64,000 bases of DNA from Bacteroidetes bacterium HGW-Bacteroidetes-7 (lineage in GTDB: Bacteria; Bacteroidota; Bacteroidia; Bacteroidales; UBA932). The stretch lies in assembly GCA_002842465.1 (NCBI GenBank), contig PHDA01000009.1:1-64000 (forward strand). The letters run 5' to 3'. Shown here in pieces: positions 19,521 to 32,198 of the stretch. Every line of letters starts with the position of its first letter. The stretch's first letter is position 1. The position numbers and the translations under genes were made by a program. Under the pieces are notes generated by a model. The model made no database searches, was not told the origin of the DNA, and saw only the letters and a program-made list of their open reading frames with translations.

Positions 19521-20672
19521 TTAATTCATATTTTGCTTTCGGTATTGTCCGGGTGTGATTCCGGCCTCTTTCTTGAAAGCCCTTAAGAAGGAGTTAATTG
19601 ATGCAAAACCCGACTCCTCCGAAACATATTCGAGTATGTACATCTTTTTATCTTTGAGAAGCTCTTTAGCATATGAGATTCTGTAGTGATTTATAAGATC
19701 GGAAAAGGTAGAATGAAACTCATTGTTAACTATTCCGGATATGTAAGAACGATTAGTGTTAAGTCTTTTGGAGATATCAGTAATTCGTAAATCGGTATGT
19801 CTGAATATTTGCTCCTCTTCAATTAGTTTTACCAGGTCAGATTTGAGTTTAAGCCTCATGCTTTCACCAGGTAGTCTTGCTGTAGAGGTGCTGTCTTTTA
19901 GAACATCAATTTTGTAGGTTGCGATAGTATATTTCTGCTTAAAACCCAGATAGCCTATAGAAAAATGAAATACACTAAAAAGTACAGAAGGGATGGCAAT
20001 TAATGCCAATTCGTTGATGAAAAATGCTTTACCAATAATATTTGCTACAACCGCAAAAACTGAGACACCCACCATTGCAATCATGATGTCTCTTGTCCAT
20101 CTGATTGTTCTCTCCTCGGTTGAAGCATAAAATTCATTAATCTGTTTTTCATATTCCTTTATGAGCTTGCTACTAAAATAGACAGAAGGAATAAGTTGTA
20201 GTACAAAAACTATGCGGCTTAACTTGAAAACTATGATCTGGATATTTGCAGTTGTTGAAAAGGGAAATTGGCCGGATTCTTTGTAGATAACTTTATGCAG
20301 ATAGGCAGATAACTCATCCGGTGACATAATTGCAAAAGTGATTACGGTTGCAACGGTAAACGAAATAGCCGGAATAAGAACCCAAAGCCCTTTTGCCTTA
20401 ATTGTACCATCTTTTGCAATACTCTTTATGTATAGATAGAAAAGGGGGAACACAGAGAGAGACGTTAGCGTATAAATGGGGTCAAGAAATGAGTATATTT
20501 TATAGTTCAATGAGAAATATGCAGCATGAGAAGCATAAAGAACGCTTGCAACAAACATAAAAAGTCCAAGGAAGAGGCGGGGTTTATCTCTTTTGCCGGC
20601 ATCGGTTACAAGAGCAATAGCCCAGAAAAGGGTTATGAACATCGGTAAGGATATAACGATGAATCTTAACAT
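19521..20672 (-). CDS. Membrane-bound AraC-family transcriptional regulator
   Basis: 383 residues. Residues 1 to about 250 contain around seven hydrophobic segments (for example MLRFIVISLPMFITLFWAIA) and no periplasmic sensor domain. The last 100 residues are an AraC/XylS DNA-binding domain with two helix-turn-helix motifs (TDISKRLNTNRSYISGIVN; VSEESGFASINSFLRAFKKE) and the family ending AGITPGQYRK. Such 7-TM AraC proteins are common in Bacteroidota and sense unknown membrane signals. It diverges from the first hydrogenase operon and is cotranscribed with the SIMPL gene; it might regulate either. Confidence 0.88.
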   Translation of the reverse strand: MLRFIVISLPMFITLFWAIALVTDAGKRDKPRLFLGLFMFVASVLYASHAAYFSLNYKIYSFLDPIYTLTSLSVFPLFYLYIKSIAKDGTIKAKGLWVLIPAISFTVATVITFAIMSPDELSAYLHKVIYKESGQFPFSTTANIQIIVFKLSRIVFVLQLIPSVYFSSKLIKEYEKQINEFYASTEERTIRWTRDIMIAMVGVSVFAVVANIIGKAFFINELALIAIPSVLFSVFHFSIGYLGFKQKYTIATYKIDVLKDSTSTARLPGESMRLKLKSDLVKLIEEEQIFRHTDLRITDISKRLNTNRSYISGIVNNEFHSTFSDLINHYRISYAKELLKDKKMYILEYVSEESGFASINSFLRAFKKEAGITPGQYRKQNMN

Positions 20673-20809: not shown

Positions 20810-20860
20810 TGATTTTATACTGTAAAAACTTATTTTATTAATATAAAATCAGTATATTTG
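20810..20860 (+). promoter_or_regulatory. Inverted repeat and -7 box upstream of hydrogenase operon 1
   Basis: TGATTTTATA (20810-20819) and TATAAAATCA (20842-20851) form a perfect 10-bp inverted repeat with a 22-base spacer. It abuts TATATTTG (20853-20860), a match to the TAnnTTTG -7 box. A factor bound there would cover the -33 region, so it looks like an operator or activator site. It does not match the Rex or FNR/CRP consensus. The rest of the 323-base gap (20673-20995) holds only the divergent AraC promoter and AT-rich DNA. Confidence 0.5.
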
Positions 20861-20995: not shown

Positions 20996-21532
20996 ATGAA
21001 TACTATTGAAGAGAGTCAAATCGATAGAGCAACTATCGACGAGATAATCTCCAGACACAGGGGTAAACCGGGTGAGCTCCTCACTGTAATGGAAGAGATA
21101 CAGGAGGCAAGCGAATTTAAATTCCTGGATAAACTCTCGATGGATTATCTTTCCTCACAAACTAAGGTGCCACTGTCGCAGATCTACAGCGTTGCAACTT
21201 TTTATTCATTTTTCAATCTTAAACCTCAGGGTAAACACTCGATTATAGTGTGCAGGGGTACTGCATGCCATACTAAAGGGTCAAAAACATTGTTGAATGA
21301 CCTTTCAACATTGCCGGGCTGTAAAGAGGCCTTGGATTCAGGTGAGACAAGTTTTACTACTGATGACAGACTCATAACGGTTAAAACCGTAGCCTGCTTT
21401 GGCCAATGTGCCCTGGCTCCCGTTGTTGCCGTTGACGGAATCATTTACAGCAATGTGACCTCAGAGCAAATTAAGAAATTACTTCAACATTTACAGGAGG
21501 ATAAGAAAGATGAAAATATCAGACTATACTAA
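20996..21532 (+). CDS. NuoE/HydC-like [2Fe-2S] subunit, hydrogenase operon 1
   Basis: Thioredoxin-like ferredoxin subunit of an NADH-linked hydrogenase complex, 178 residues from the ATG at 20996. The cluster cysteines are C86 and C91 (CRGTAC) and C134 and C138 (CFGQC), the NuoE pattern. The N-terminal helical region includes VPLSQIYSVATFYSFF, typical of the family. The frame stays open upstream to a TTG at 20858, but that TTG overlaps the likely -7 box, and NuoE proteins are about 160-180 long, so I prefer the ATG. It overlaps the next gene by 23 bases. Electrons pass from here to the flavin subunit. Confidence 0.88.
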   Translation: MNTIEESQIDRATIDEIISRHRGKPGELLTVMEEIQEASEFKFLDKLSMDYLSSQTKVPLSQIYSVATFYSFFNLKPQGKHSIIVCRGTACHTKGSKTLLNDLSTLPGCKEALDSGETSFTTDDRLITVKTVACFGQCALAPVVAVDGIIYSNVTSEQIKKLLQHLQEDKKDENIRLY

Positions 21533-24500
21533 ATTATTAGAAATAAAGGAACGAGCTTCAAAAAAAATCCTTCCTGACAAACCATATGTTGCTATAGGTA
21601 TGGGCACATGCGGAATCGGAAGGGGAGCAGAGGTTCTGTTTGACAGTTTTGAGAGGGTTGTTGCCGAAAGAAAACTGGATATAATCATCAAAAAAACAGG
21701 ATGCTTCGGCTTCTGCGCAGAAGAGCCACTGGTGAATATCTATATTCCAGGCAAACCTCTTATAATATTGCATCGTGTAACAGAGAATGATGTTATACCG
21801 TTGATTATTGGCATTGAGAAGGGCATAATGCCTTATAGGAACGTACTTTGTAGAATAGAGGAGTGGGATTTTATAACTGAAAAATTCGAGTTCGGCAGAG
21901 GACTTACAGAGTATCCTCTCTGGAATGAGGTTCCGTTTTTCAAATGGCAAAAGAAGATTGTTCTTCGCAACTGTGGGCTGATTGTTCCGGACGACATCGA
22001 AGAGTATATTGCTGTTGGTGGGTATTTCCCTCTTTACAACGCTTTACACAAGATGAACCCTGTTTCTGTAATTGACGAGGTGAAAAAATCAAAGTTACGC
22101 GGTAGGGGTGGTGCCGGCTTTCCAACTGGAGTTAAGTGGGAACTTATGGCCAAAGTAGAGGGGGATCAGAAATATGTGATATGTAATGCTGACGAAGGTG
22201 ACCCGGGAGCATTCATGAACAGAAACGAAATTGAAAGTGATCCATTTATGCTAATTGAGGGTATGACCATTGGTGCTTTTGCAATGGGTGCTTCAAAGGG
22301 TGTTGTTTATATCAGAGCAGAGTATCCGCTTGCAGTTCAGCGTCTTAAAGGTGCAATTAAACAAGCTAAAGAACTTGGTCTGCTCGGAGATAACATTCTC
22401 AATTCGGGCTTTAGCTTTGATGTTGACATTGTTGAGGGTGCCGGAGCTTTTGTTTGCGGCGAGGAGACCTCACTAATTCACAGTATCGAAGGAAAATCGG
22501 GAAGGCCATCACCAAGACCTCCTTATCCTGCTGAAAAAGGGCTGTATGGAAAACCAACTAATATTAACAACGTAGAGACATGGTGCAATGTGCCTGTAAT
22601 TATCTCCAGAGGAGGTGACTGGTTCACCGAAACTGGAACAGATAAGAGCTCAGGAACAAAGGTTTTTTCACTTGTAGGAAAAGTTAAGAACACGGGGCTA
22701 GTTGAGTTACCCCTTGGATCAACGCTTGAGACAATTGTATTTAAAATTGGAGAGGGTACAGGTACACAAAAAACTGTTAAAGCAGTTCAATCTGGAGGTC
22801 CCTCAGGCGGTTGTATACCTGTTGAGTATCTAAATACACCTGTTGACTATGAATCTCTCAACTCTTTAGGTGCCATTATGGGTTCCGGAGGAATGGTTGT
22901 GATGGACCAGGATAACTGTATGGTGGATGTTGCAAGGTATTTTATCGAGTTTTCAAATGGCGAATCATGTGGTAAATGCACTCCATGCAGAGAGGGTCTT
23001 GCTCAAACTTTACATATTCTGAATAAAGTCACAGAGGGCGTCGCCACGAGTGAGGATTTGGATGCACTTGTCAAGCTTGGTCAAGTGATTAAAAGTACAG
23101 CACTTTGCGGTCTGGGTCAAACTGCTCCTAATCCCGTTCTTACTACTTTAAGGTATTTCAGGGATGAGTACGACCATCACATGATTGAGAAGAAGTGCGA
23201 GCCGGGAATTTGCCATAGCCTCTTTACTGCTCTTTGCGAAAACAGCTGTCCGCTTCACATGAATATTCCGAGATACCTGCAGTTGCTTAAGGAAGATAAA
23301 ATTGAGGATGCTTTTGAAACCTCCCTCAGAGATAATCCTCTTCCGGGAACTCTGGGTAGAATTTGTCACTTCCACTGTCAGATGAAATGCCTGAGAGAGA
23401 CAATTGATGCTCCGGTTTCACAAGGAGATATTCACCGTTACATAGCGGATACCGTCTATAAAGAGGGCAAAGCCCAAAAGATATATGCAAGGCTGATAAA
23501 AGAAAAACTTCCGCCAACTTACAAGAAAATTGCCATTATTGGTGCTGGTCCGGCCGGTTTAACAGCTGCGTTCTATCTTGTGAGATTGGGGCACGATGTT
23601 ACAATATTCGACAGCGAGTCAGAAGCAGGAGGTATTCTCAGATGGGGTATTCCTAAGTATCGCCTACCTCTTGAAACGCTCGATACAGAAATAAACTTTA
23701 TCAAAGAACTTGGTGTTCACTTCGTTTTCAACACAACAGTTGGTAAAGATATCTCAATGGAGGAGCTTGAAAGAGACTACCATAAGATTATTATAGCAGT
23801 AGGAGCCCATAAGGATATCCTGCTTAGCGTTGAGGGAAATGAACTTGAAGGAGTAGTTTCAGGAATGGATTTCCTTAAAGATGTAGCTAAGGGGATAAAA
23901 CCTGAGATCGGTAAAAATGTGGTAGTAATTGGTGCCGGAAACGTTGCAATTGATGCTGCAAGAACTGCCCAGAGATTTGGAACAGAGGTTACTGTTGTTT
24001 ACCGGAGGCTCAAAGGCGATATGCCGGCTAATAAGGATGAGATAAAGGAGGCAGAAATCGAAGGTGTTAACTTCTTGTTCCTGTGTAATCCTAAAGAGAT
24101 TCTCGCAGACGCCAATGACAAAGTTAGAGGTATTGAACTTATGAAGATGGAGTGCGGTGATATTGACCTTTCAAACAGAAGAAAACCTGTTCCAACAGGC
24201 GAGTCATTTATAATTGGGTGCGACTCAGTAATTATGGCTGTTGGTGAAGAGGTTGATGCTCCGTTTGTAAAAGATTTCGGATTAAAAATATCTACTGATG
24301 GTGTAATAAGTGCCGACCACTTTACATTTAAGACCAACCATCCTAAGATTTATGCAATCGGAGATGCTGTTACCGGTCCTGCTACTGCGGCTGAGGCAAT
24401 GGGTATTGCTAAGAAGGCTGCAGAGGTTATTGACTACAAATTAATGAATAAACGACGCTTCCATAAATTAAACCGAGGGTTTGATTATAGTGATGAAGTG

Positions 24501-24674
24501 CCATTGAAACCAGAAGGTGGCAACAGACACTACTCAATCAAACGCCCGCTCGAAGAGCGAACCGGCAACTTCAAGGAGATAAATCTAGGCTATTCAAAAG
24601 ACCAGGCCTTTGCCGAAGCTGCCAGATGCTTGCGTTGCGATGTACGTATCACTACTAACACCGAGGAGGAATAA
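21510..24674 (+). CDS. NuoF/HydB-like flavin subunit fused to an NfnB/GltD-like NAD(P) oxidoreductase
   Basis: 1054 residues in three parts. (1) About 1-110: thioredoxin-like domain with C34, C65 and C69. (2) About 150-540: NuoF-type FMN and NADH site (GRGGAGFPTG at 198-207; CNADEGDPGAF; GAFVCGEETSLI) and the [4Fe-4S] motif SCGKCTPCREG with CGLGQ. (3) About 550-1054: NfnB/GltD-like flavoprotein with cysteine-rich segments (CENSCP; CHFHCQMKC), the FAD fold IGAGPAGLTAAFYL near 677, the NAD(P) fold VIGAGNVAIDAARTA near 806, AIGDAVTGP, and a final CLRCD. A strong SD (AGGAGG) precedes the ATG. The fusion resembles StnB of the Sporomusa-type transhydrogenase, as I recall it. This should let the complex also use NADP(H), which is inference. 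Confidence 0.9.
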   Translation: MKISDYTKLLEIKERASKKILPDKPYVAIGMGTCGIGRGAEVLFDSFERVVAERKLDIIIKKTGCFGFCAEEPLVNIYIPGKPLIILHRVTENDVIPLIIGIEKGIMPYRNVLCRIEEWDFITEKFEFGRGLTEYPLWNEVPFFKWQKKIVLRNCGLIVPDDIEEYIAVGGYFPLYNALHKMNPVSVIDEVKKSKLRGRGGAGFPTGVKWELMAKVEGDQKYVICNADEGDPGAFMNRNEIESDPFMLIEGMTIGAFAMGASKGVVYIRAEYPLAVQRLKGAIKQAKELGLLGDNILNSGFSFDVDIVEGAGAFVCGEETSLIHSIEGKSGRPSPRPPYPAEKGLYGKPTNINNVETWCNVPVIISRGGDWFTETGTDKSSGTKVFSLVGKVKNTGLVELPLGSTLETIVFKIGEGTGTQKTVKAVQSGGPSGGCIPVEYLNTPVDYESLNSLGAIMGSGGMVVMDQDNCMVDVARYFIEFSNGESCGKCTPCREGLAQTLHILNKVTEGVATSEDLDALVKLGQVIKSTALCGLGQTAPNPVLTTLRYFRDEYDHHMIEKKCEPGICHSLFTALCENSCPLHMNIPRYLQLLKEDKIEDAFETSLRDNPLPGTLGRICHFHCQMKCLRETIDAPVSQGDIHRYIADTVYKEGKAQKIYARLIKEKLPPTYKKIAIIGAGPAGLTAAFYLVRLGHDVTIFDSESEAGGILRWGIPKYRLPLETLDTEINFIKELGVHFVFNTTVGKDISMEELERDYHKIIIAVGAHKDILLSVEGNELEGVVSGMDFLKDVAKGIKPEIGKNVVVIGAGNVAIDAARTAQRFGTEVTVVYRRLKGDMPANKDEIKEAEIEGVNFLFLCNPKEILADANDKVRGIELMKMECGDIDLSNRRKPVPTGESFIIGCDSVIMAVGEEVDAPFVKDFGLKISTDGVISADHFTFKTNHPKIYAIGDAVTGPATAAEAMGIAKKAAEVIDYKLMNKRRFHKLNRGFDYSDEVPLKPEGGNRHYSIKRPLEERTGNFKEINLGYSKDQAFAEAARCLRCDVRITTNTEEE

Positions 24675-24676
24675 TT

Positions 24677-26449
24677 ATGGAAAATAAATTTATAAACATT
24701 ATTGTAGACAACAGACCCTATCAGGTAATGAAGGGTACAACAATACTGGAAACATGCAAGGAGATAGGTATAAAAATTCCCTCTCTATGCTACCTTAAAG
24801 ATGTTTCAAGTAATGCTTCATGCGGAATTTGCATGGTTGAGGTTAAAGGAGCAAAAACACTTGTAAGATCCTGTATATCTCAGGTTAACGAAGGGATGGA
24901 AATAACAACCCATTCACCGGCTATAAATCAGGCAAGAACCACAAACCTTGAATTGCTGCTGGCCAACCACCCGAAAGATTGTCTTATTTGCGAAAGAAAC
25001 GGAAATTGTGAACTTCAGGAGCTTACGGTAACCCTCGGTATTAAAGATACACCTTATGCCAAAACCAAACCGATTGAAAAGATTGATGACACATCTCTCT
25101 CTTTGGTAAGAAATCCTGAGAAGTGTATTCTATGCGGCAGATGTATAGCGGTCTGTGCTGATGTTCAAACTGTGCATGCAATTGATTTTACAGGAAGAGG
25201 CCTAAGAAGTATAGTCTCTACATATCAGGACAAGGGTCTTGGGAATGTAGCCTGTACCAATTGCGGTCAGTGTGCTCTTGTATGCCCTACTGCAGCAATT
25301 GTAGAGAAGGACGAAACGAAAGAGGTTTTTGAGGACATCTACAATAAAGATAAAATTGTAATTGTTCAGACTGCTCCTGCGATCAGGGTAGGTATAGGTG
25401 AAGCAATGGGTATGGAACAGGGAGCCCTTGTAACAGGAAAGATGGTTGCTTCATTGAGAAAGCTTGGATTTGACAAAGTGTTTGATACTCAGTTTACAGC
25501 CGACCTTACCATTATGGAGGAGGGGCATGAGCTTATCAGCCGTATTAAAAACGGAGGAACACTTCCAATGATAACTTCATGTTCACCAGGATGGATTAAG
25601 TTTATTGAGCATTTCTATCCAAAATCTCTTGGTCACCTTTCGACATGTAAATCGCCTCAGCAGATGTTTGGTGCTGTAGCAAAGACCTATTATGCCGAAA
25701 AACTTAATGTTGACCCGCGCAAGATTATTGTTGTTTCAATAATGCCTTGTACTGCAAAGAAATTTGAGTGCAAAAGGCCTGAGATGAACTCTGCCTTTGA
25801 ATATTGGAAAGACATACTCAACCTCACAGAGAGAGATAACTTCTATGACGTTGACTATGTGCTTACCACAAGAGAACTTGCCAAGATGTTTAAAAAGACA
25901 GGCATAGATTTCTGCACACTTCAGGAGGAGGAGTTTGACAAACCTCTGGGTATCTCTACCGGAGCCGGAGTAATTTTTGGGGCAACGGGTGGAGTTATGG
26001 AGGCTGCTGTCAGAACTGCATATGAGGTAATTACAGGGAAACCGCTTAACAAGATAGATCTTACTGTCGTGAGAGGTTTTGAGGGAATTAAGGAGGCAGA
26101 ACTAGACCTTAAAGGAACTAAGGTTAAGGTTGCAGTTGCACACACCCTTAAAAATGCCAGAGCTCTTCTTGATCAGATAGAGGAGGGTAAGTCGCCCTAT
26201 GCATTTATTGAGGTGATGACCTGTCCAGGCGGATGCCTTGGTGGCGGAGGACAAGCAATTCCTACCACCTGGGAGATACGTCAGAAGAGAGCAGATTCTA
26301 TCTATAAGGAGGATCGACTTATGCCATTAAGAAAATCTCATGAAAACCCTGCAATTAAGGCTATCTATGATGAGTTCCTAAACGAACCTCTTGGGCATCT
26401 TTCGCACGAGCTGCTGCATACTCATTATGAAGATCGTGGAATCTATTAA
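24677..26449 (+). CDS. hydA: [FeFe]-hydrogenase catalytic subunit HydA, operon 1
   Basis: 590 residues. In order: [2Fe-2S] ferredoxin fold (C38, C49, C52, C66), His-ligated [4Fe-4S] (H98, C102, C105, C111), two [4Fe-4S] sites (C150/153/156/160 and C193/196/199/203), then the H-domain. H-cluster motifs: L1 TSCSPGW (C302, S303), L2 IMPCTAKKFE (C358), L3 MTCPGGCLGGGG (C516, C520). Compared with the usual L1 TSCCPxW, the second Cys is Ser. The C-terminal segment (LRKSHENPAI...SHELLHTHY) is the small-subunit-like tail. SD GAGGA precedes the ATG; the gene is 2 bases after the fusion gene and ends before a strong terminator. Reversible H2 formation or uptake with ferredoxin and pyridine nucleotides is expected. 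Confidence 0.93.
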   Translation: MENKFINIIVDNRPYQVMKGTTILETCKEIGIKIPSLCYLKDVSSNASCGICMVEVKGAKTLVRSCISQVNEGMEITTHSPAINQARTTNLELLLANHPKDCLICERNGNCELQELTVTLGIKDTPYAKTKPIEKIDDTSLSLVRNPEKCILCGRCIAVCADVQTVHAIDFTGRGLRSIVSTYQDKGLGNVACTNCGQCALVCPTAAIVEKDETKEVFEDIYNKDKIVIVQTAPAIRVGIGEAMGMEQGALVTGKMVASLRKLGFDKVFDTQFTADLTIMEEGHELISRIKNGGTLPMITSCSPGWIKFIEHFYPKSLGHLSTCKSPQQMFGAVAKTYYAEKLNVDPRKIIVVSIMPCTAKKFECKRPEMNSAFEYWKDILNLTERDNFYDVDYVLTTRELAKMFKKTGIDFCTLQEEEFDKPLGISTGAGVIFGATGGVMEAAVRTAYEVITGKPLNKIDLTVVRGFEGIKEAELDLKGTKVKVAVAHTLKNARALLDQIEEGKSPYAFIEVMTCPGGCLGGGGQAIPTTWEIRQKRADSIYKEDRLMPLRKSHENPAIKAIYDEFLNEPLGHLSHELLHTHYEDRGIY

Positions 26450-26471
26450 CACTGTATGTGTTTAAAATTAA

Positions 26472-26505
26472 ATGAGGATGACCAAAAAGTCATCCTCATT
26501 TTTTT
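26472..26505. terminator. Bidirectional terminator between the two hydrogenase operons
   Basis: ATGAGGATGAC (26472-26482) pairs with GTCATCCTCAT (26489-26499) around CAAAAA, followed by a run of seven T on the plus strand. On the minus strand the tail is TTTAATTTT. It lies between the convergent hydA genes and can serve both. Confidence 0.85.
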
Positions 26506-26522
26506 ATATACTCCCAAAATAT

Positions 26523-28313
26523 TTAGAATCTCTTCCTTGGAGTATATTTTGTGTGCAGCAGATGGTGTGATTTTTCTCCTAAAGGCTTGCCTAGGAAATC
26601 GGCGTAAATTTTAATGACTTCTGGGTTCTGGTGAGATTTACGTAACGGCATACCTTCGTCTTCGGCATAGATTGCGGCAGCCCTTTTTGCCCGGATCTCC
26701 GGACTGGTAGGTATCGGCTGACCCCCTCCGCCCAGGCATCCGCCCGGACACGCCATAAATTCTATGAAGTGATAATTCGTTTTACCCGCTTTGATTTCAT
26801 CCATTACAATTTTTGCATTGGCCAATCCGTGAGCAACAGCGCACTTTAACTCTACGCCATCAAGAAAAGCCCACTCTTTGAGAGGTTTTTCAATTTTTAT
26901 ACTTGCCTCTTTAATGCCTTCAACTCCTCTTACAGGAGTAATATTAAGATTTTCGAAAGGAACCTCTCTGCCGGTAACCAGTTCGTAGGCGGTCCTTAGT
27001 GCTGCCTCCATTACTCCTCCTGTAGCTCCAAAGATAACACCTGCACCGGTTGATTCTCCCATTATACGGTCGTAATGCATATCGTCCAGTTTAAGGAAGT
27101 CAATACCGGCTTGTTTTATCATTATGGCAAGTTCTCGTGTTGTCAGAACGTAATCAACATCGCGATATCCGCTGTCGTGCATTTCCGGCCGGTTTGCCTC
27201 AAACTTTTTGGCTGTACATGGCATGATTGATACAGATACAATGCTCTCAGGATCAAGGTTGCGGGATTTGGCATAATAGGTCTTAACCAAAGCTCCGAAC
27301 ATTTGCTGAGGTGACTTGCATGTTGAGAGATTATCAAGGTATTCAGGATACATATGTTCAATGAACTTAATCCATCCCGGTGAGCAAGAGGTTGCCATTG
27401 GCAGCTTAACAGTACTATCCTTATCTACAAGAACTTTTTTCAATCTTGTAAGAAGTTCTGTGCCCTCTTCAATAATTGTAAGGTCTGCAGTAAAGTCGGT
27501 ATCCATAACGGCATCAAAACCAAGTTTTTTGAGCGCTGAAACCATCTTGCCTGTAACCCTCATTCCGGGATCAAATCCAAGCTCTTCGCCCAGACCTACA
27601 CGAACGGCAGGTGCTGTCTGCACAACTACATATTTTGTTTTGTCTGAAATTGCACTCCAAACCTCTTCAATATAGTTTTTCTCAACCAAAGCTCCTGTTG
27701 GGCAGTGGTTTATACATTGACCGCAATTTGTACAAACAACTTCGCTCATGGTCTTTTCAAAGAAAGTAGTAACCTTAGCATGTTCTCCTTTGAATGCCAT
27801 TGTGAGAGCATTAACGCTTTGAAGTTCGGCACATGTCCTGACGCAACGCTGGCATCTTATACATTTGCTGTCATCCTTGATGATTGAGGGCGAAAATTTG
27901 TCTACAGTGTAGTTTTTAAATGGAACAAGATGGATAAAGTCCTGATTCATTATCTTGTACTCAGATGCTAAAGTCTGAAGCTCGCAGTTACCATTCTTGT
28001 AACAGCTAGTACAGTCGGCATTGTGCTCGGTTAGAAGGAGTTCAATAATGTGCTTTCTGGAGTTTCGCACCTTTAATGTGTTTGTCATTACCTCCATACC
28101 GCTCTCACAAGGGGTAGCACAAGCTGTCGCAAGCCTCTTTTGGCCTGCGAGTTCAACCACACAAACCCTGCAGTTACCTGCAATGCATAGGTCTTTGTGG
28201 TAACACAGGGTAGGGATTATTACCCCAGCCTGGGTTGCAGCATCCAGAATAGATGTTCCATGCTTCACATCAACCTTTTGGCCGTTGATTGTAATACTTA
28301 TTTTATTTCCCAT
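26523..28313 (-). CDS. hydA: [FeFe]-hydrogenase catalytic subunit HydA, operon 2
   Basis: 596 residues, paralogue of the convergent hydA. [2Fe-2S] Cys 37, 48, 51, 65; His-cluster H97, C101, C104, C110; [4Fe-4S] sites C151/154/157/161 and C194/197/200/204. H-cluster motifs: L1 ATSCSPGW (C310, S311), L2 IMPCTAKKFE, L3 MACPGGCLGGGG. L1 has the same Ser as the other copy. Against that copy it lacks an insert of about ten residues between L2 and VDYVLTTRELA. It is the last gene of a hydC-hydB-hydA operon, 19 bases after hydB. No maturation genes (hydE, hydF, hydG) are in the window. Confidence 0.93.
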   Translation of the reverse strand: MGNKISITINGQKVDVKHGTSILDAATQAGVIIPTLCYHKDLCIAGNCRVCVVELAGQKRLATACATPCESGMEVMTNTLKVRNSRKHIIELLLTEHNADCTSCYKNGNCELQTLASEYKIMNQDFIHLVPFKNYTVDKFSPSIIKDDSKCIRCQRCVRTCAELQSVNALTMAFKGEHAKVTTFFEKTMSEVVCTNCGQCINHCPTGALVEKNYIEEVWSAISDKTKYVVVQTAPAVRVGLGEELGFDPGMRVTGKMVSALKKLGFDAVMDTDFTADLTIIEEGTELLTRLKKVLVDKDSTVKLPMATSCSPGWIKFIEHMYPEYLDNLSTCKSPQQMFGALVKTYYAKSRNLDPESIVSVSIMPCTAKKFEANRPEMHDSGYRDVDYVLTTRELAIMIKQAGIDFLKLDDMHYDRIMGESTGAGVIFGATGGVMEAALRTAYELVTGREVPFENLNITPVRGVEGIKEASIKIEKPLKEWAFLDGVELKCAVAHGLANAKIVMDEIKAGKTNYHFIEFMACPGGCLGGGGQPIPTSPEIRAKRAAAIYAEDEGMPLRKSHQNPEVIKIYADFLGKPLGEKSHHLLHTKYTPRKRF

Positions 28314-28332
28314 AAATGTAATTTTTTCAGCA

Positions 28333-29517
28333 TTAATAAATCATCTCTTCTCTGAAGTTCTCAACAATTGAAGAGAATGAATTGGCAACGGATTGTCCCA
28401 GTCCACATTTGGAGGTTATCTGCATTGTCTCGGCAAGTTTTAAAAGCTTGTCTAGATATTGAGCATTTTTATCTCCTCTTTTAACTGCCTTAATACCCAT
28501 CAAAAGCTGTTGGCATCCTACCCGGCAAGGGGTACATTGACCACAAGACTCCTCGGCAAAAAAGTTAAGATAGTTGTCAAGTACGTTAAACATAGATCTG
28601 GAGCTGTTAAACAGCATCATGGACCCTCCTGTAGGGAGTGATATTCCAACGAGTTTGCCTTGAAAACCAATGTTTGTCTCTGCAAACTTCTTCCTTGGAA
28701 CAAGAAAACCTGATGCTCCACCAACCTGAACTGCTTTTGTGTCGTCATCTCCAAACTCTTCAACAAAGTCTGCCAGACTCATACCAAGCTCAAGTTCATA
28801 TATGCCCGGTTTTGGAGTATCTCCTGAAACTGAAAATAGTTTTGAACCTCTGGAGTACTGAACCCCAAGGTCATAAAACCTTTTTGATCCGTATCTGAAA
28901 ATTGTATAGGTATGTGCAAGAGTTTCTACATTGTTTATTACGGTTGGCTTACCCATGTATCCGAATGACGAAGGATATGGAGGTTTGTTTCTTGGTTCTC
29001 CTCTTTTTCCTTCCATTGATTCGAACAGAGCGGTCTCTTCACCACAGATATACGCACCGCTTCCCATAAAAATCTTAATGGAAAATTCAAAATTGATCTC
29101 TTTGCAAAAATATTCAAATTCACTAATTGCCTTGTTAAGTTCAGGCTGAAGGAAGTAATACTCACCTCTGAGATAGATGTATCCCTTTTTTGCTCCAATA
29201 ACATGCCCGCAAATTGCAATCGCTGTTAGAACTTTAAAGGGAACTCTTGAGAGTATCTCCCTGTCTTTGAAAGTTCCCGGTTCGCCTTCGTCAGCGTTGC
29301 AAATAACATACTTTACATCGCTTTTCTCTTCGGAGGCAACCTTCCATTTTAATCCGGTTGGGAAACCGGCTCCACCTCTTCCTTTTAATTCAGAGCTGAT
29401 GAGTTCGTTTATCAACTCCTGGGGAGGACGGTTAATGCTCTTCTTAAGTACATCTTCCCAATCGTTCTCATTTTTAAAAATGAAATCGACTCTTTTTAAT
29501 AAATAATTAGTTGACAT
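28333..29517 (-). CDS. hydB: NuoF/HydB-like flavin subunit, operon 2 (short form)
   Basis: 394 residues: only the NuoF core. FMN/NADH site GRGGAGFPTGLKW and CNADEGEPGTF, then GAYICGEETALFES, and the [4Fe-4S] motif SCGQCTPCRVG with CGLGQ near the end. It lacks both the N-terminal thioredoxin-like domain and the C-terminal ferredoxin domain of Thermotoga-type HydB, and also the NfnB-like part of its paralogue. Without the C-terminal clusters its electron path may differ from that of characterised bifurcating HydABC; that is inference. It overlaps hydC by 11 bases. Confidence 0.9.
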   Translation of the reverse strand: MSTNYLLKRVDFIFKNENDWEDVLKKSINRPPQELINELISSELKGRGGAGFPTGLKWKVASEEKSDVKYVICNADEGEPGTFKDREILSRVPFKVLTAIAICGHVIGAKKGYIYLRGEYYFLQPELNKAISEFEYFCKEINFEFSIKIFMGSGAYICGEETALFESMEGKRGEPRNKPPYPSSFGYMGKPTVINNVETLAHTYTIFRYGSKRFYDLGVQYSRGSKLFSVSGDTPKPGIYELELGMSLADFVEEFGDDDTKAVQVGGASGFLVPRKKFAETNIGFQGKLVGISLPTGGSMMLFNSSRSMFNVLDNYLNFFAEESCGQCTPCRVGCQQLLMGIKAVKRGDKNAQYLDKLLKLAETMQITSKCGLGQSVANSFSSIVENFREEMIY

Positions 29518-29995
29518 TTTCCCCTCCCTCTTTTTTATTCATATACATTGTAAGAATATCCCGAATTTTCTCGGGAGTGAGATCGGTGTAAACCTCGTTG
29601 TTGATTAACATAGCCGGTGCCTTATGGCACAATCCCAGACAGTTGGTTTGCAGAAGTGAGAATTTTCCATCTGAAGATGTTTCGCCTACTCTTATTTTTA
29701 GCATATCTTCAATGGTGAGCAGTATCTGTTTTTCTCCCTTCATGGCACATGTAATGGTTTTGCATACACGAATAATGTACGTGCCCATTTTTTTGTGTTC
29801 AAGGAATGAGTAGAATGTTGCCGTTCCGAAAACTTCGGTTGCCGGCATATCTAACTCTCTTGCAATTTCTATCATGGAGTATTCAGAAAGATACTTCTCT
29901 TGTTCTACTACGCCCTGCAGGATAGGCAATAAATTATGCCTCTCACGACCATGTTTATCGGCAAGGTCTTTGATGAGCTCAATAATTGGTTTCAT
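29507..29995 (-). CDS. hydC: NuoE/HydC-like [2Fe-2S] subunit, operon 2
   Basis: 162 residues, normal for NuoE. Cluster ligands C78 and C83 (CKTITC) and C119 and C123 (CLGLC). The helical N-terminus includes LDMPATEVFGTATFYSFLEH, matching the same element of its paralogue. First gene of operon 2. An open minus-strand frame without ATG precedes it and ends in an ATGA overlap with this start codon (see 29996-30182). Confidence 0.9.
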   Translation of the reverse strand: MKPIIELIKDLADKHGRERHNLLPILQGVVEQEKYLSEYSMIEIARELDMPATEVFGTATFYSFLEHKKMGTYIIRVCKTITCAMKGEKQILLTIEDMLKIRVGETSSDGKFSLLQTNCLGLCHKAPAMLINNEVYTDLTPEKIRDILTMYMNKKEGGENVN

Positions 29996-30265: not shown

Positions 30266-31231
30266 TTACCACCAGCCGCGAATGTTGTAAATAACCCTTG
30301 GCTGGTTACTGCCGTAGGCAACTCCAATGTCTCTCATTGCCCTTATTCTAAGCTTACTGATATCTACATTGTCTTGCTGAACTTTCAAAAGAAAATTCCA
30401 CTCTCTCTGGTCCACCTCTTTTACTCTTTTGGCAATTCTCTCAGATAGAGCTATTGCACTTGGAAAGCATGAGGCCTGCGGGTCAATTCCTGCAAGAAAC
30501 CTTATTGCACGCTGACCTGCATTAAAGTCCTGTCCGGAATTCCATGCATTTGTTGCCTGAGCCAGCAGTACCTGACAATCGTGGTCAATTTTTTTGTCAA
30601 ATATGGGACCCAGAAGAATCATACACTTTTCATAGCACTCTTTGCATACACTTGGAACACGGAAAAGGGTGGCTAGTGCGGCATTGTATTCATGCATACT
30701 TTCCAATGCTCTTGCTTCAGAAATAATCAGGTCACAGTTTGCGTTGTAATATTCAATTATTTTTCTTTTTCCGTTTTCAATAAAGTATTGATACTGAGGA
30801 TCACGAGTTCTAATGTTTTTTATGGCGTCCAAATAGGCTTTGGTTTCATTGTCCCCTACACCCTTGACACTAACAGAGTGAGATGCATACAAAACTCCAT
30901 CAATCCCATCACCAATATACAGATTGACTTCCAGGTTGTATGCGTGCATTGGCGGAACGGTTGGAGTAATATTCTTTGTAGAAGCTACAATATTTGCTGT
31001 CATAATAAACCTTGGATTGAATGAGGCTCCACCCATACCATTCTGTGTCGCTATCTGACTAAGTTTGTTTTCAAGCGCATTTCGTGCCACTGAAGAAATT
31101 CCCTCAATCTGATCCGGAACATATGTATTTAGTACAATTCTGGCCTCATCATCGGCACTTCCGTATGTATTTTGAGAATATACATAGCTTCCGGCTAACA
31201 GGATACATATTATAAGTAATATCTTTTTCAT
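30266..31231 (-). CDS. Secreted protein of unknown function
   Basis: I do not recognise the family with certainty. 321 residues with a signal peptide (cut near LAGSYVYSQ, residue 20). The mature part has RIVLNTYVPDQ, then an ALENKLSQIATQNGMGG helix and RFIMTANIVA, a layout like the TolB/CsgG-like fold where a helix precedes a beta-sheet. A helical Cys-containing region in the middle (SVCKECYEKCMILLG; CQVLLAQATNAWNSGQDFN) looks like TPR-type repeats. Last gene of a run of secreted proteins; a strong terminator follows. Likely periplasmic or outer-membrane associated. Confidence 0.75.
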   Translation of the reverse strand: MKKILLIICILLAGSYVYSQNTYGSADDEARIVLNTYVPDQIEGISSVARNALENKLSQIATQNGMGGASFNPRFIMTANIVASTKNITPTVPPMHAYNLEVNLYIGDGIDGVLYASHSVSVKGVGDNETKAYLDAIKNIRTRDPQYQYFIENGKRKIIEYYNANCDLIISEARALESMHEYNAALATLFRVPSVCKECYEKCMILLGPIFDKKIDHDCQVLLAQATNAWNSGQDFNAGQRAIRFLAGIDPQASCFPSAIALSERIAKRVKEVDQREWNFLLKVQQDNVDISKLRIRAMRDIGVAYGSNQPRVIYNIRGWW

Positions 31232-31253: not shown

Positions 31254-32198
31254 TTATTTTTCTCCGACTGTCAGAGTTGCCTGTCCAAGACCTCTCATAG
31301 TTATTCTGGAATCGATCATAAACCTATCCTTTAAATAACGCTGTAATCCCCTTACCCATGTACGGGCGTCAACAGCTCTGTTGTTGGTATCGTATAGTGG
31401 AATTCTCACCTGTTCAAAAATCATTCTGTTTTCTGATGCGTCAGCAGTGCTGAACCTTCCCTGAACAGTATTGTCTGATACCCAGTTCTCAATTTGAAAA
31501 CCAAGCTCGTCTCCTCCGTATTCGGTCATTAAATCGCCATCAAACGAATCCCATTTTCTTATTCTGAGGGTAATCTCTCTGCCATTTTCGAACATATCAT
31601 CAAAATGTTGCTGAAGCTGTCCATTGAAGTTGTCAAGATGAGAAAGCACAGCCGTTTCAAGCATTATTGGGAGCTCTGTTGCGATAAGCTGATTCCCTGT
31701 ACCTGAGGCTCCGGCAACCTGTTTGTCGGTATAAGCGTCAAGCCCTTGAAGAACAAAGGTTACTGACCTTCTTGGACCCATTGTGTTTATTGTCCATGTC
31801 ATCTGTATCCAGATGTCAGCCCTTGCAATGTTTTTAAGTTTGTCAATAGGGCTCTCGCTCAACTCAGCACCACTTCTGCTCGATGTCATCGCTGTTTCTG
31901 CAGCTTCGATTTCAAGAGATTTAAGTGATGATTCGAGGTTTTTCAGCGGGAACCCTCTTTGGGTCATAAGTTCATTTATCTTGCTTATCACCACCATAAG
32001 ATCGGCGCTCTCCTGCATTGCCCTTTTATAATCAGGTAGTTTGACCCGGGTTCCCTGGTTGTCGAATTCCATCATATAACCGTTAGTATTGCACCACAAA
32101 TCACTTGGAACCACCATAATTGTGGGTTTTTTTGCCTGAGATAATGCAGGCAAAACTGAGCAAATAACCAGTATAGTTGTAATTATCAGTTTCTTCAT
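31254..32198 (-). CDS. Secreted protein, DUF6175-like
   Basis: 314 residues with a signal peptide ending at VLPALSQ. The mature protein starts with PTIMVVPSDLWCNTNGYM, followed by a long helix (ADLMVVISKINELMTQRGF), IARADIWIQMTW and VTFVLQGLDAYTDKQ. I associate this pattern with the Bacteroidota family DUF6175, from memory. The strand-helix-strand order is like CsgG/LpoB/TolB-type periplasmic domains, but that is a guess. It sits 13 bases from the LPP20-like lipoprotein gene upstream and 22 from the next gene, so it is in one operon. Confidence 0.78.
   Translation of the reverse strand: MKKLIITTILVICSVLPALSQAKKPTIMVVPSDLWCNTNGYMMEFDNQGTRVKLPDYKRAMQESADLMVVISKINELMTQRGFPLKNLESSLKSLEIEAAETAMTSSRSGAELSESPIDKLKNIARADIWIQMTWTINTMGPRRSVTFVLQGLDAYTDKQVAGASGTGNQLIATELPIMLETAVLSHLDNFNGQLQQHFDDMFENGREITLRIRKWDSFDGDLMTEYGGDELGFQIENWVSDNTVQGRFSTADASENRMIFEQVRIPLYDTNNRAVDARTWVRGLQRYLKDRFMIDSRITMRGLGQATLTVGEK

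Follow-up and report, generated by a model that had tools for sequence, protein, structure and literature searches.

A [FeFe]-hydrogenase operon of a Bacteroidota genome with a HydB–GltD fusion, and the possible use of NADP(H) in place of ferredoxin

The operon and its gene set

The operon considered here lies on contig PHDA01000009.1 of an anaerobe, Bacteroidetes bacterium HGW-Bacteroidetes-7 (C14 among the 42 contigs of a 2.4 Mb genome) and encodes the subunits of an [FeFe]-hydrogenase in which HydB, the NuoF-like subunit, is fused to a GltD/NfnB-like module. The window is the whole stretch of DNA analysed, that is, positions 1 to 64,000 of this contig. Within it, positions 20996-26449 hold three genes on the forward strand, in the order hydC (nuoE), HydB–GltD fusion and hydA (Table 1); the first two overlap by 23 bases, and 2 bases separate the fusion from hydA. 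An earlier note, made from the sequence alone, had described a NuoE, a 1054-residue NuoF–NfnB fusion and a full HydA with a complete H-domain in one operon, and the coordinates, Pfam matches and hydrogenase motifs all agree with that description. As we discuss below, NADP(H) may occupy in this enzyme the position that ferredoxin has in bifurcating HydABC (Bfu)-type hydrogenases.

HydA matches Fe_hyd_lg_C across all 245 positions, together with Fe_hyd_SSU, and its three H-cluster motifs are intact (P1 TSCSPGW, P2 MPCTAKK, P3 MTCPGGC), as in [FeFe]-hydrogenases of group A; the NCBIfam models NF040763 and TIGR02512 give 870.7 and 523 bits, against cut-offs of 765 and 406, respectively. The solved chains nearest to HydC are the C subunits of Nfn-ABC and HydABC, and its C86, C91, C134 and C138 are probably the cluster cysteines; an alternative start, TTG at 20858, lies upstream in the same frame. 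The possibility that the fusion arose from a frameshift or from assembly can be dismissed: among 25 genomes of the genus, the source included, it is read in one frame in 20 and is found in pieces on separate contigs in three (G003, G012 and G014). The other two (G005 and G020) have no match across it.

Table 1. Features of the hydrogenase region, in window coordinates unless a locus is named.
Feature	Position	Strand	Evidence or remark
hydC/nuoE	20996..21532	+	178 aa, thioredoxin-like [2Fe-2S] subunit; PF01257, E 5.3e-38
HydB–GltD fusion	21510..24674	+	1054 aa, single frame; Pfam and structure matches to both halves
HydB/NuoF core, FMN/NADH domain (191-362) to [4Fe-4S] B1 domain (473-557)	22080..23180	+	PF01512 and PF10589 above cut-off
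His/Cys end of B2 [2Fe-2S] site (H557, C563, C568)	23178..23213	+	C470 and T508 lie upstream
Fer4_20 part of GltD module	23211..23465	+	PF14691; C576, C580 assigned to distal, C619, C623, C627, H642 to proximal cluster
FAD- and NADP-binding Rossmann domains of GltD module	23526..24404	+	PF07992; alignment to Nfn L, Nfn-ABC A, StnC
C-terminal CLRC (C1040, C1043)	24627..24638	+	alignments
hydA	24677..26449	+	590 aa, complete [FeFe]-hydrogenase subunit; PF02906 full length
Hairpin, 13 pairs and T tail	26470..26501	+	between two convergent hydrogenase operons
Second, convergent operon (complete [FeFe]-hydrogenase operon)	26523..29995	-	NuoE 29507-29995, short NuoF 28333-29517, HydA 26523-28313
Swapped hydC–hydB block, GltD-fused	L226:5839-12020	+	same-locus comparison
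Swapped hydC–hydB block, ordinary	L223:6001-10155	-	same-locus comparison

Cofactor sites of the fusion protein

Pfam finds Complex1_51K (residues 191-362), NADH_4Fe-4S (473-557), Fer4_20 (568-652) and Pyr_redox_2 (673-965) in the fusion, which is NuoF-like to about residue 560 and GltD/NfnB-like from 568 onward. The nearest solved chains are of the HydB type for the first half (9n5u_B, 7t2r_B, 9bov_B and 7q4v_B) and Nfn-ABC A, Nfn L and StnC for the second. An AlphaFold2 model, built with 56 aligned fusions, has a mean predicted local distance difference test score of 90.6 and a predicted template modelling score of 0.85; a PDB fold search with this model matched HydB and Nfn-ABC B chains as well as Nfn L and Nfn-ABC A chains. 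The SLBB domain (IPR019554) does not appear in the Pfam table of the fusion; in the fold search, HydB chains were matched by the model along most of their length. Conservation was judged on 97 fusions, the distinct ones of 112 records with the window and its close congeners included. A 56-row set without any other genome of the genus, made up of the window and 55 of 60 prepared sequences (L093, L096, L114, L135 and L151 being omitted), has the same invariant cysteines, H557 and R718.

The four cysteines of the [4Fe-4S] cluster B1 (C487, C490, C493 and C533) are kept in all 97 fusions, for C533 partly by selection, since it was part of the search patterns. Bifurcating HydB proteins contain in addition an unusual [2Fe-2S] cluster, B2, for which the ligands are given as four cysteines (one often threonine) and a histidine that is reportedly absent from non-bifurcating homologues (PMC9304861, PMC8880783). 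Its counterparts in the fusion are C470, T508, H557, C563 and C568, which align with C438, C476, H525, C531 and C536 of A. mobile; all 97 fusions retain the three cysteines and the histidine, and 94 have T, C or S at position 508. The fusion also carries GAFM and GGPSG. Bifurcating beta subunits are marked by G[AE]xM and GGPSG, whereas non-bifurcating ones have Thr/Ser and Lys/Ser/Ala at the NADH site and no GGPSG (Losey et al. 2020), and neither the NADH-site residues nor the missing GGPSG of the non-bifurcating NADH-dependent hydrogenases is found in the fusion. These features bear on a reading in which the enzyme is a plain non-bifurcating NAD(P)-reducing hydrogenase with independent nucleotide sites, or a transhydrogenase with H2 as a side product. 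HydA does score as group A6, which NCBIfam names NADH-dependent, but the name is undiscriminating, as the HydA beside the ordinary HydB of the same genome scores A6 too. Given that the B2 ligands and the bifurcating markers are conserved in the fusions, and that a separate operon 73 bases away in the same genome bears the opposite markers, we consider such an enzyme improbable.

In the GltD module, C576, C580, C619, C623 and C627 are found in 97 of 97 fusions, and C1040 and C1043, probably the remaining ligands of the distal cluster, in all 93 that have letters there (four are gapped); in the fusion, as in StnC, this CxxC is C-terminal in the module, but in Nfn L it is N-terminal. The motifs for flavin adenine dinucleotide (FAD) and NADP are intact (GxGxxG 678-683, R718, GxG 808-810, YRR 831-833 and GD 951-952), with R718 kept in 97 and YRR in 96 of the 97. 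A degenerate GltD domain is ruled out, as the cofactor positions examined are kept; the loss of FAD- or NADP-binding residues from the C-terminal part, which the earlier note had named as grounds for refutation, is seen at none of them. Together with the B2 site, these motifs uphold its statement that the fusion adds an FAD and an NAD(P) site to a bifurcating-type core.

No B3/B4 ferredoxin-type domain (IPR017896) was found in the fusion, in which the sole Fer4-type Pfam match is the Fer4_20 of the GltD module. In HydB this tail, with the [4Fe-4S] clusters B3 and B4, is the putative ferredoxin site (PMC9304861, PMC8880783). The genome's own ordinary HydB, on contig C17, has a tail with two CxxCxxCxxxCP-type motifs, of which the first cysteine comes 13 residues past the last B2 cysteine, and the same distance is seen in 17 of 26 records labelled as ordinary HydB (one has 4 residues; eight, some of them cut, were unmatched). 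In the fusions the first cysteine of the GltD module follows only 8 residues past the last B2 cysteine (97 of the 112 records, the other 15 being unmatched by the pattern).

Relation to known systems

The architecture is not new. The earlier note, which knew of no characterised example in Bacteroidota, had named a described HydABC class with the same fusion as the finding that would count against it, and such descriptions are in print at genome level, without assays. The first, from 2018, concerns a trimeric hydrogenase of Vallitalea guaymasensis (peg.3894-3896), in which a GltD domain replaces the two-[4Fe-4S] domain of HydB (PMC6163223); its authors deduce that there is another site for NAD(P)H and raise a connection with glutamate, and their account of the enzyme includes no assay. 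Its host belongs to the Firmicutes, and it is compared with the window fusion by description only. The second is sub-type I BfuABC, described from Hydrogenedentota and related phyla; here B3/B4 are replaced by DPD_II, with two [4Fe-4S] clusters, and an FAD/NAD(P) domain, alongside an FeFe BfuA and BfuC (Zheng and Huang 2024, PMC11406978). The section on this sub-type is a genome-only description that gives no assay and calls for more studies; the words NADPH and GltD are absent from the main text of the paper. The domains that define the sub-type are all found in the window (PF14691, the dihydropyrimidine dehydrogenase domain II, at 568-652; PF07992 at 673-965; a HydA with H motifs). L139, the sole Hydrogenedentota fusion among our loci, carries Lys in place of the window's His and belongs to a different clade of the GltD tree.

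With the Bfu/HydABC family the window has in common HydC, a HydB core with B1 and B2, and an FeFe HydA; the domains for flavin mononucleotide (FMN) and NADH_4Fe-4S of NuoF and the B2 histidine are present, and what sets it apart is the lack of B3/B4 and of IPR017896. By the family definition in the 2022 review, BfuB must carry a ferredoxin-type domain, and the fusion is not mentioned there (Schut et al. 2022, PMC9304861). In HydDB, group A2 is given as having a GltD-type neighbour of HydA, NuoF in that neighbour being excluded (PMC5037454). The fusion as a neighbour would thus give A3, the bifurcating class, and not A2. It should be noted that the HydDB tool reads the downstream gene and that the window fusion lies upstream of hydA.

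The module also has relatives in Stn/Nfn-ABC (compared here through PDB 8oh5, 9bov and 9n5u) and NfnAB. Stn/Nfn-ABC resembles the fusion in joining a HydBC core to a GltD-type NADP module with a C-terminal CxxC and without the proximal Glu (PMC10482914, PMC7483475). The earlier note had likened the fusion to StnB, and this does not hold: the GltD domain of Stn sits in the NuoG-like StnC, as the third-substrate input, StnB is an ordinary HydB-like subunit that keeps its ferredoxin-like domain, and there is no H-domain, whereas the window carries GltD on HydB and has HydA as its third subunit. NfnAB contains a homologous subunit for FAD, NADP and two [4Fe-4S] clusters (5jca_L, 39% identical in the fold search), and differs in its Glu at the proximal cluster, its NfnA partner and its bifurcating FAD; the window has H642, and its operon contains no NfnA-like gene. 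The gene set is real, conserved, intact and of a kind already seen in genomes, to which the window adds, from the genus studied, a branch with His at position 642.

Residue 642 and the kind of FAD

The contrast between His, Lys and Glu at position 642, which aligns with the cluster Glu of NfnB, was seen first, and larger sets (97 fusions and 92 rows) were then built to test it. Among the 97 fusions the residue is K in 58, H in 38 and R in one, and never Glu. In the 92-row set, the fusions have K in 51, H in 10 and R in one, all 18 StnC-type rows and both rows with GltD joined to a NuoF tail have K, and the 10 NfnB/GltD rows all have E, as does the genome's own NfnB-type protein at the aligned position. 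On the tree a single change accounts for His, which is characteristic of the clade containing the window. From these alignments, residue 642 would itself be a cluster ligand in the fusions. In NfnB the proximal cluster has Glu and the FAD bifurcates; in StnC, where the FAD is held to be non-bifurcating, replacement of K170 by Ala or Cys badly harms activity (PMC10482914, PMC7483475). The pattern at 642 thus favours an FAD that transfers electrons, as in StnC, over a second bifurcating one.

For sub-type I BfuABC it has nevertheless been proposed that the FAD of the GltD part bifurcates as in NfnB, in addition to the FMN–FeS centre (Zheng and Huang 2024, PMC11406978), and the arginine of the FAD pocket, R718, is kept in every fusion. 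We regard the proposal as very unlikely for the proteins described here, given the contrast of K, H and R with the Glu of NfnB/GltD, the operon without an NfnA-like gene, and the GltD-domain tree, in which a fully supported group holds all 10 NfnB/GltD rows and no fusion.

Distribution, partner genes and origin of the module

In other genomes of the order the fusion was found in one of 16 (G030, where it is cut by the contig end). Among 395 genomes sampled from the phylum, at least 11, the source included, match across the junction. A full-length HydA stands beside the fusion in 10 of 11 other loci of the phylum (one of these being G030, where hydC is out of view), and in the eleventh (G212) the partner has 225 aa and no H-domain. 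The scan of named genomes covers the best 80 of 582 confirmed places, so that the spread over phyla is a floor. In 65 of these 80 both parts of the fusion are nearly complete; six are fusions cut by a contig end (L125, L131, L134, L149, L155 and L168), three have only a NuoF tail joined to GltD (L112, L162 and L164), and six have a StnB/StnC-type pair instead (L160, L161, L163, L165, L166 and L167). The 80 loci come from Spirochaetota, Omnitrophota, Acidobacteriota, Pseudomonadota, Balneolota, Bacillota, Chloroflexota, Planctomycetota, Kiritimatiellota and others. Matches in a plasmid collection were mostly below 60% identity.

In the NuoF-tail–GltD genes (L162:2313-6343, L164:5416-9236 and L112:5746-7542), which are shorter, the C-terminal Fe-S part of NuoF is joined to GltD and the FMN part is missing; HydA follows in L162 and L164, and these genes may be the glutamate-synthase-linked type of HydDB. 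A StnB/StnC-type pair is also present in a related genome of the order (G035; L181:1-5516), where a longer stop-to-stop frame of 1837 is reported.

The search for the NuoF–GltD architecture beside HydA that the earlier note had proposed was rewarded: the gene that follows is a HydA with H motifs in 42 of the 96 fusions besides the window, the motifs of PF02906 being judged by two of three patterns. A NuoG-like partner without the motifs follows in 23, the partner is cut by the end of the stretch in 15, and none was seen in 16. Domain scans of chosen neighbours placed a [NiFe] large subunit near the fusion in three loci (L095, L098 and L106) and molybdopterin oxidoreductase proteins with the binding domain in four (L127, L128, L141 and L142). 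In six others (G212, L144, L145, L152, L153 and L158) a neighbouring protein matches part of the glutamate-synthase domain. That such neighbours share one operon with the fusion rests on adjacency. The occurrence of the fusion core beside [NiFe], molybdopterin and glutamate-synthase genes implies that the NADP module accompanies the HydBC core rather than H2 chemistry. At L173:10660-16999, and in L144, L145, L152, L153 and L158, HydC, HydB::GltD, a short NuoG-like protein and a partial glutamate-synthase protein of 526-558 aa are encoded consecutively; rows of this type, from several phyla, are perhaps glutamate synthases fed by NADH and NADPH.

Two quick trees address the origin of the module. 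The GltD-domain tree was made from 92 of 129 non-redundant rows (159 before), L112, L125, L131 and L155 being left out and the rest removed by a stricter similarity filter. The HydB-core tree used 74 of 116 rows (145 before). The labels StnC-type and NfnB/GltD-type were assigned by script rules, and the check for an NfnA-like neighbour covered the window's genome alone. Of the 18 StnC-type rows, 14 are grouped at 99 in the GltD tree and four fall outside, one of which (L060) is placed on a long branch among the fusions. A single clade for the fusion GltD domains and the two NuoF-tail rows was not rejected (p-AU, the approximately unbiased test, 0.918), and the constrained tree outscored the free one. 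By contrast, the HydB-core tree, in which long branches meet among the outgroup rows, rejects a single fusion clade (p-AU 8e-43) and requires 6 changes; here L134, L149 and L168, cut by contig ends, had been relabelled from ordinary to fusion, the original labels giving 9 changes. Since the one tree allows a single clade and the other rejects it, it seems that one kind of GltD cassette was either fused to several HydB cores or traded among them. That the module was recently captured from the NfnB-type protein of this genome was ruled out, the two being 40% identical and in separate tree groups.

Exchange at one locus in the genus of Moorella thermoacetica

A comparison was made within the genus of Moorella thermoacetica DSM 21394. 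Of 11 genomes of this genus, nine have a 1011-aa fusion and one a match cut by the contig; the eleventh, G445, has no match across the junction and carries instead hydC, an ordinary 619-aa hydB and hydA. DSM 21394 has at the same place hydC, a 123-aa gene, the fusion and hydA. Both loci adjoin the same PF02906 gene, of about 750 aa and 95% identical over 665, and the flanking DNA is 97% identical upstream and 92% downstream, with about 3 kb extra before hydC in DSM 21394. Between G445 and DSM 21394, HydA is 93% identical, the HydB core 75% and HydC 71%; against three fusion genomes the values are 92-93%, 75% and 71-75%, respectively (HydC being seen in two). The electron-carrier part thus differs far more than the hydrogenase part between the two genomes. 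The assayed HydABC of M. thermoacetica was considered as a possible fusion enzyme and set aside: its HydB is given in the text of a review as about 65 kDa, and G445, of this genus, has an ordinary HydB.

A proposed mechanism and its energetics

The gene order, the cofactor positions, the absence of B3/B4 and the length of the tether can be read from the sequence, for which the best reading is a HydABC (Bfu)-type enzyme in which NADP(H) takes the place of ferredoxin; we consider the chances of this reading to be about even. With two GltD clusters tethered beside B2 in place of B3/B4, the simplest wiring ends at FAD and NADP, and with the B3/B4 domain missing ferredoxin may not be a partner at all. 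H2 would be oxidised or made at the H-cluster of HydA, and electrons would pass through the HydA clusters and B1 to the FMN of HydB, the site of the NAD(H) reaction. For HydABC the proposed low-potential path is FMN–C1–B2–B3–B4–ferredoxin (PMC9304861, PMC8880783); here the second branch would instead run C1–B2–distal [4Fe-4S]–proximal [4Fe-4S]–FAD–NADP(H), with the GltD FAD acting as an electron-transfer flavin as in StnC, and not as a second bifurcating flavin. The net reaction would be 2 H2 + NAD+ + NADP+ = NADH + NADPH + 2 H+, and would be reversible. It is the wiring, its direction, and the replacement of ferredoxin by NADP(H) rather than an addition to it, that we infer.

An alternative, suggested in the earlier note, is an enzyme with four carriers, in which ferredoxin docks on the GltD-type clusters, NADP(H) is extra, and one complex couples H2, ferredoxin, NAD(H) and NADP(H). 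NfnB sends low-potential electrons to ferredoxin via homologous clusters, and at the Moorella locus the ordinary HydB seen in place of the fusion has a ferredoxin-like tail. The ferredoxin-like domain is, however, missing from the window fusion and the aligned fusions, the distal cluster is tethered so close to B2 that it may be buried, and the K or H at 642 sides with StnC, the GltD part of which passes electrons inward to FMN, ferredoxin being thought to bind StnB. Such coupling of four carriers seems to us unlikely, if less so than the two rivals discussed above.

Several observations weigh against NADP(H) in place of ferredoxin. Our search of open-licence papers found no characterised fusion enzyme and no activity reported for any fusion member. 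NfnAB reduces ferredoxin via the two [4Fe-4S] clusters of its GltD-like subunit, so those of the fusion could still serve ferredoxin. The full B1-B5 set has been deemed necessary for bifurcation, and the HydB of S. wolfei, without B3/B4, is described as non-bifurcating (PMC11406978). The genome already has NfnA/NfnB-type and RnfC genes, and other routes to NADPH are thus possible. The fusion has no redox enzyme next to it in three (L092, L094 and L138) of the nine loci with a partner lacking the H-domain that were scanned, fully or partially, the glutamate-synthase loci aside (for L121 the scan covered only the NuoG-like partner). Finally, R718 corresponds to the Arg to which the bifurcation at the NfnB FAD is attributed; but it is kept in StnC as well and so does not decide between the two roles of the FAD.

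With physiological potentials of -280 mV for NADH and -380 mV for NADPH (Schut et al. 2022, PMC9304861), the computed H2 equilibrium is about 145 Pa for NADH and NADPH together; NADH by itself gives 3 Pa, and NADH with ferredoxin 15 kPa. As the joint value lies between the other two, such an enzyme would have a niche. More broadly, and with somewhat less than even confidence, we suggest that HydC and HydB::GltD constitute a ferredoxin-free bifurcating core, with NADP(H) at the low-potential position of ferredoxin, which would act as a plug-in module over many phyla with at least four third-substrate units ([FeFe]-hydrogenase, [NiFe]-hydrogenase, formate-dehydrogenase-like and glutamate-synthase-like). 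The window enzyme would then represent a His-type branch of it, by which a cell could set its NADPH and NADH against H2 near 100 Pa.

Other hydrogenases and neighbouring genes

The second operon, convergent with the first, looks like one of the non-bifurcating NADH-hydrogenase type: its short NuoF stops shortly past CGLGQ and carries GTFK and GGASG instead of G[AE]xM and GGPSG. The hairpin between the two operons is possibly a terminator common to both; terminator-like sites number 8 in the region, against a shuffle mean of 8.1, and this one is backed only by its stem length and its place. The presence in the same genome of an ordinary HydABC, NfnA/NfnB-type genes, RnfC and the operon with non-bifurcating markers suggests a division of labour by H2 pressure and carrier.

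Further genes were noted in passing. On contig C17, a 445-aa PF02906 protein with ferredoxin and FeS domains, which could be a hydrogen sensor, is encoded upstream of the ordinary HydB and HydA (L169:3860-5197). On contig C31 (L170:4711-13872), a group B [FeFe]-hydrogenase and a second PF02906 protein with an FeS domain stand side by side with genes like etfA, etfB, acyl-CoA dehydrogenase and acetaldehyde dehydrogenase. Within the window, a 383-aa helix-turn-helix protein (PF12833) at 19521-20672, divergent from the fusion operon, could be its regulator; at 31254-32198 there is a DUF6175 protein (E 6e-120), adjoining a 321-aa protein at 30266-31231.

Significance

If NADP(H) does replace ferredoxin in the fusion enzymes, FMN–FeS bifurcation is not tied to ferredoxin, unlike the definition of the Bfu family given in 2022, and to label these enzymes as ordinary bifurcating hydrogenases would name the wrong partner. 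The fusion enzyme may then serve as a hydrogen switch that links two of the cell's common electron carriers.

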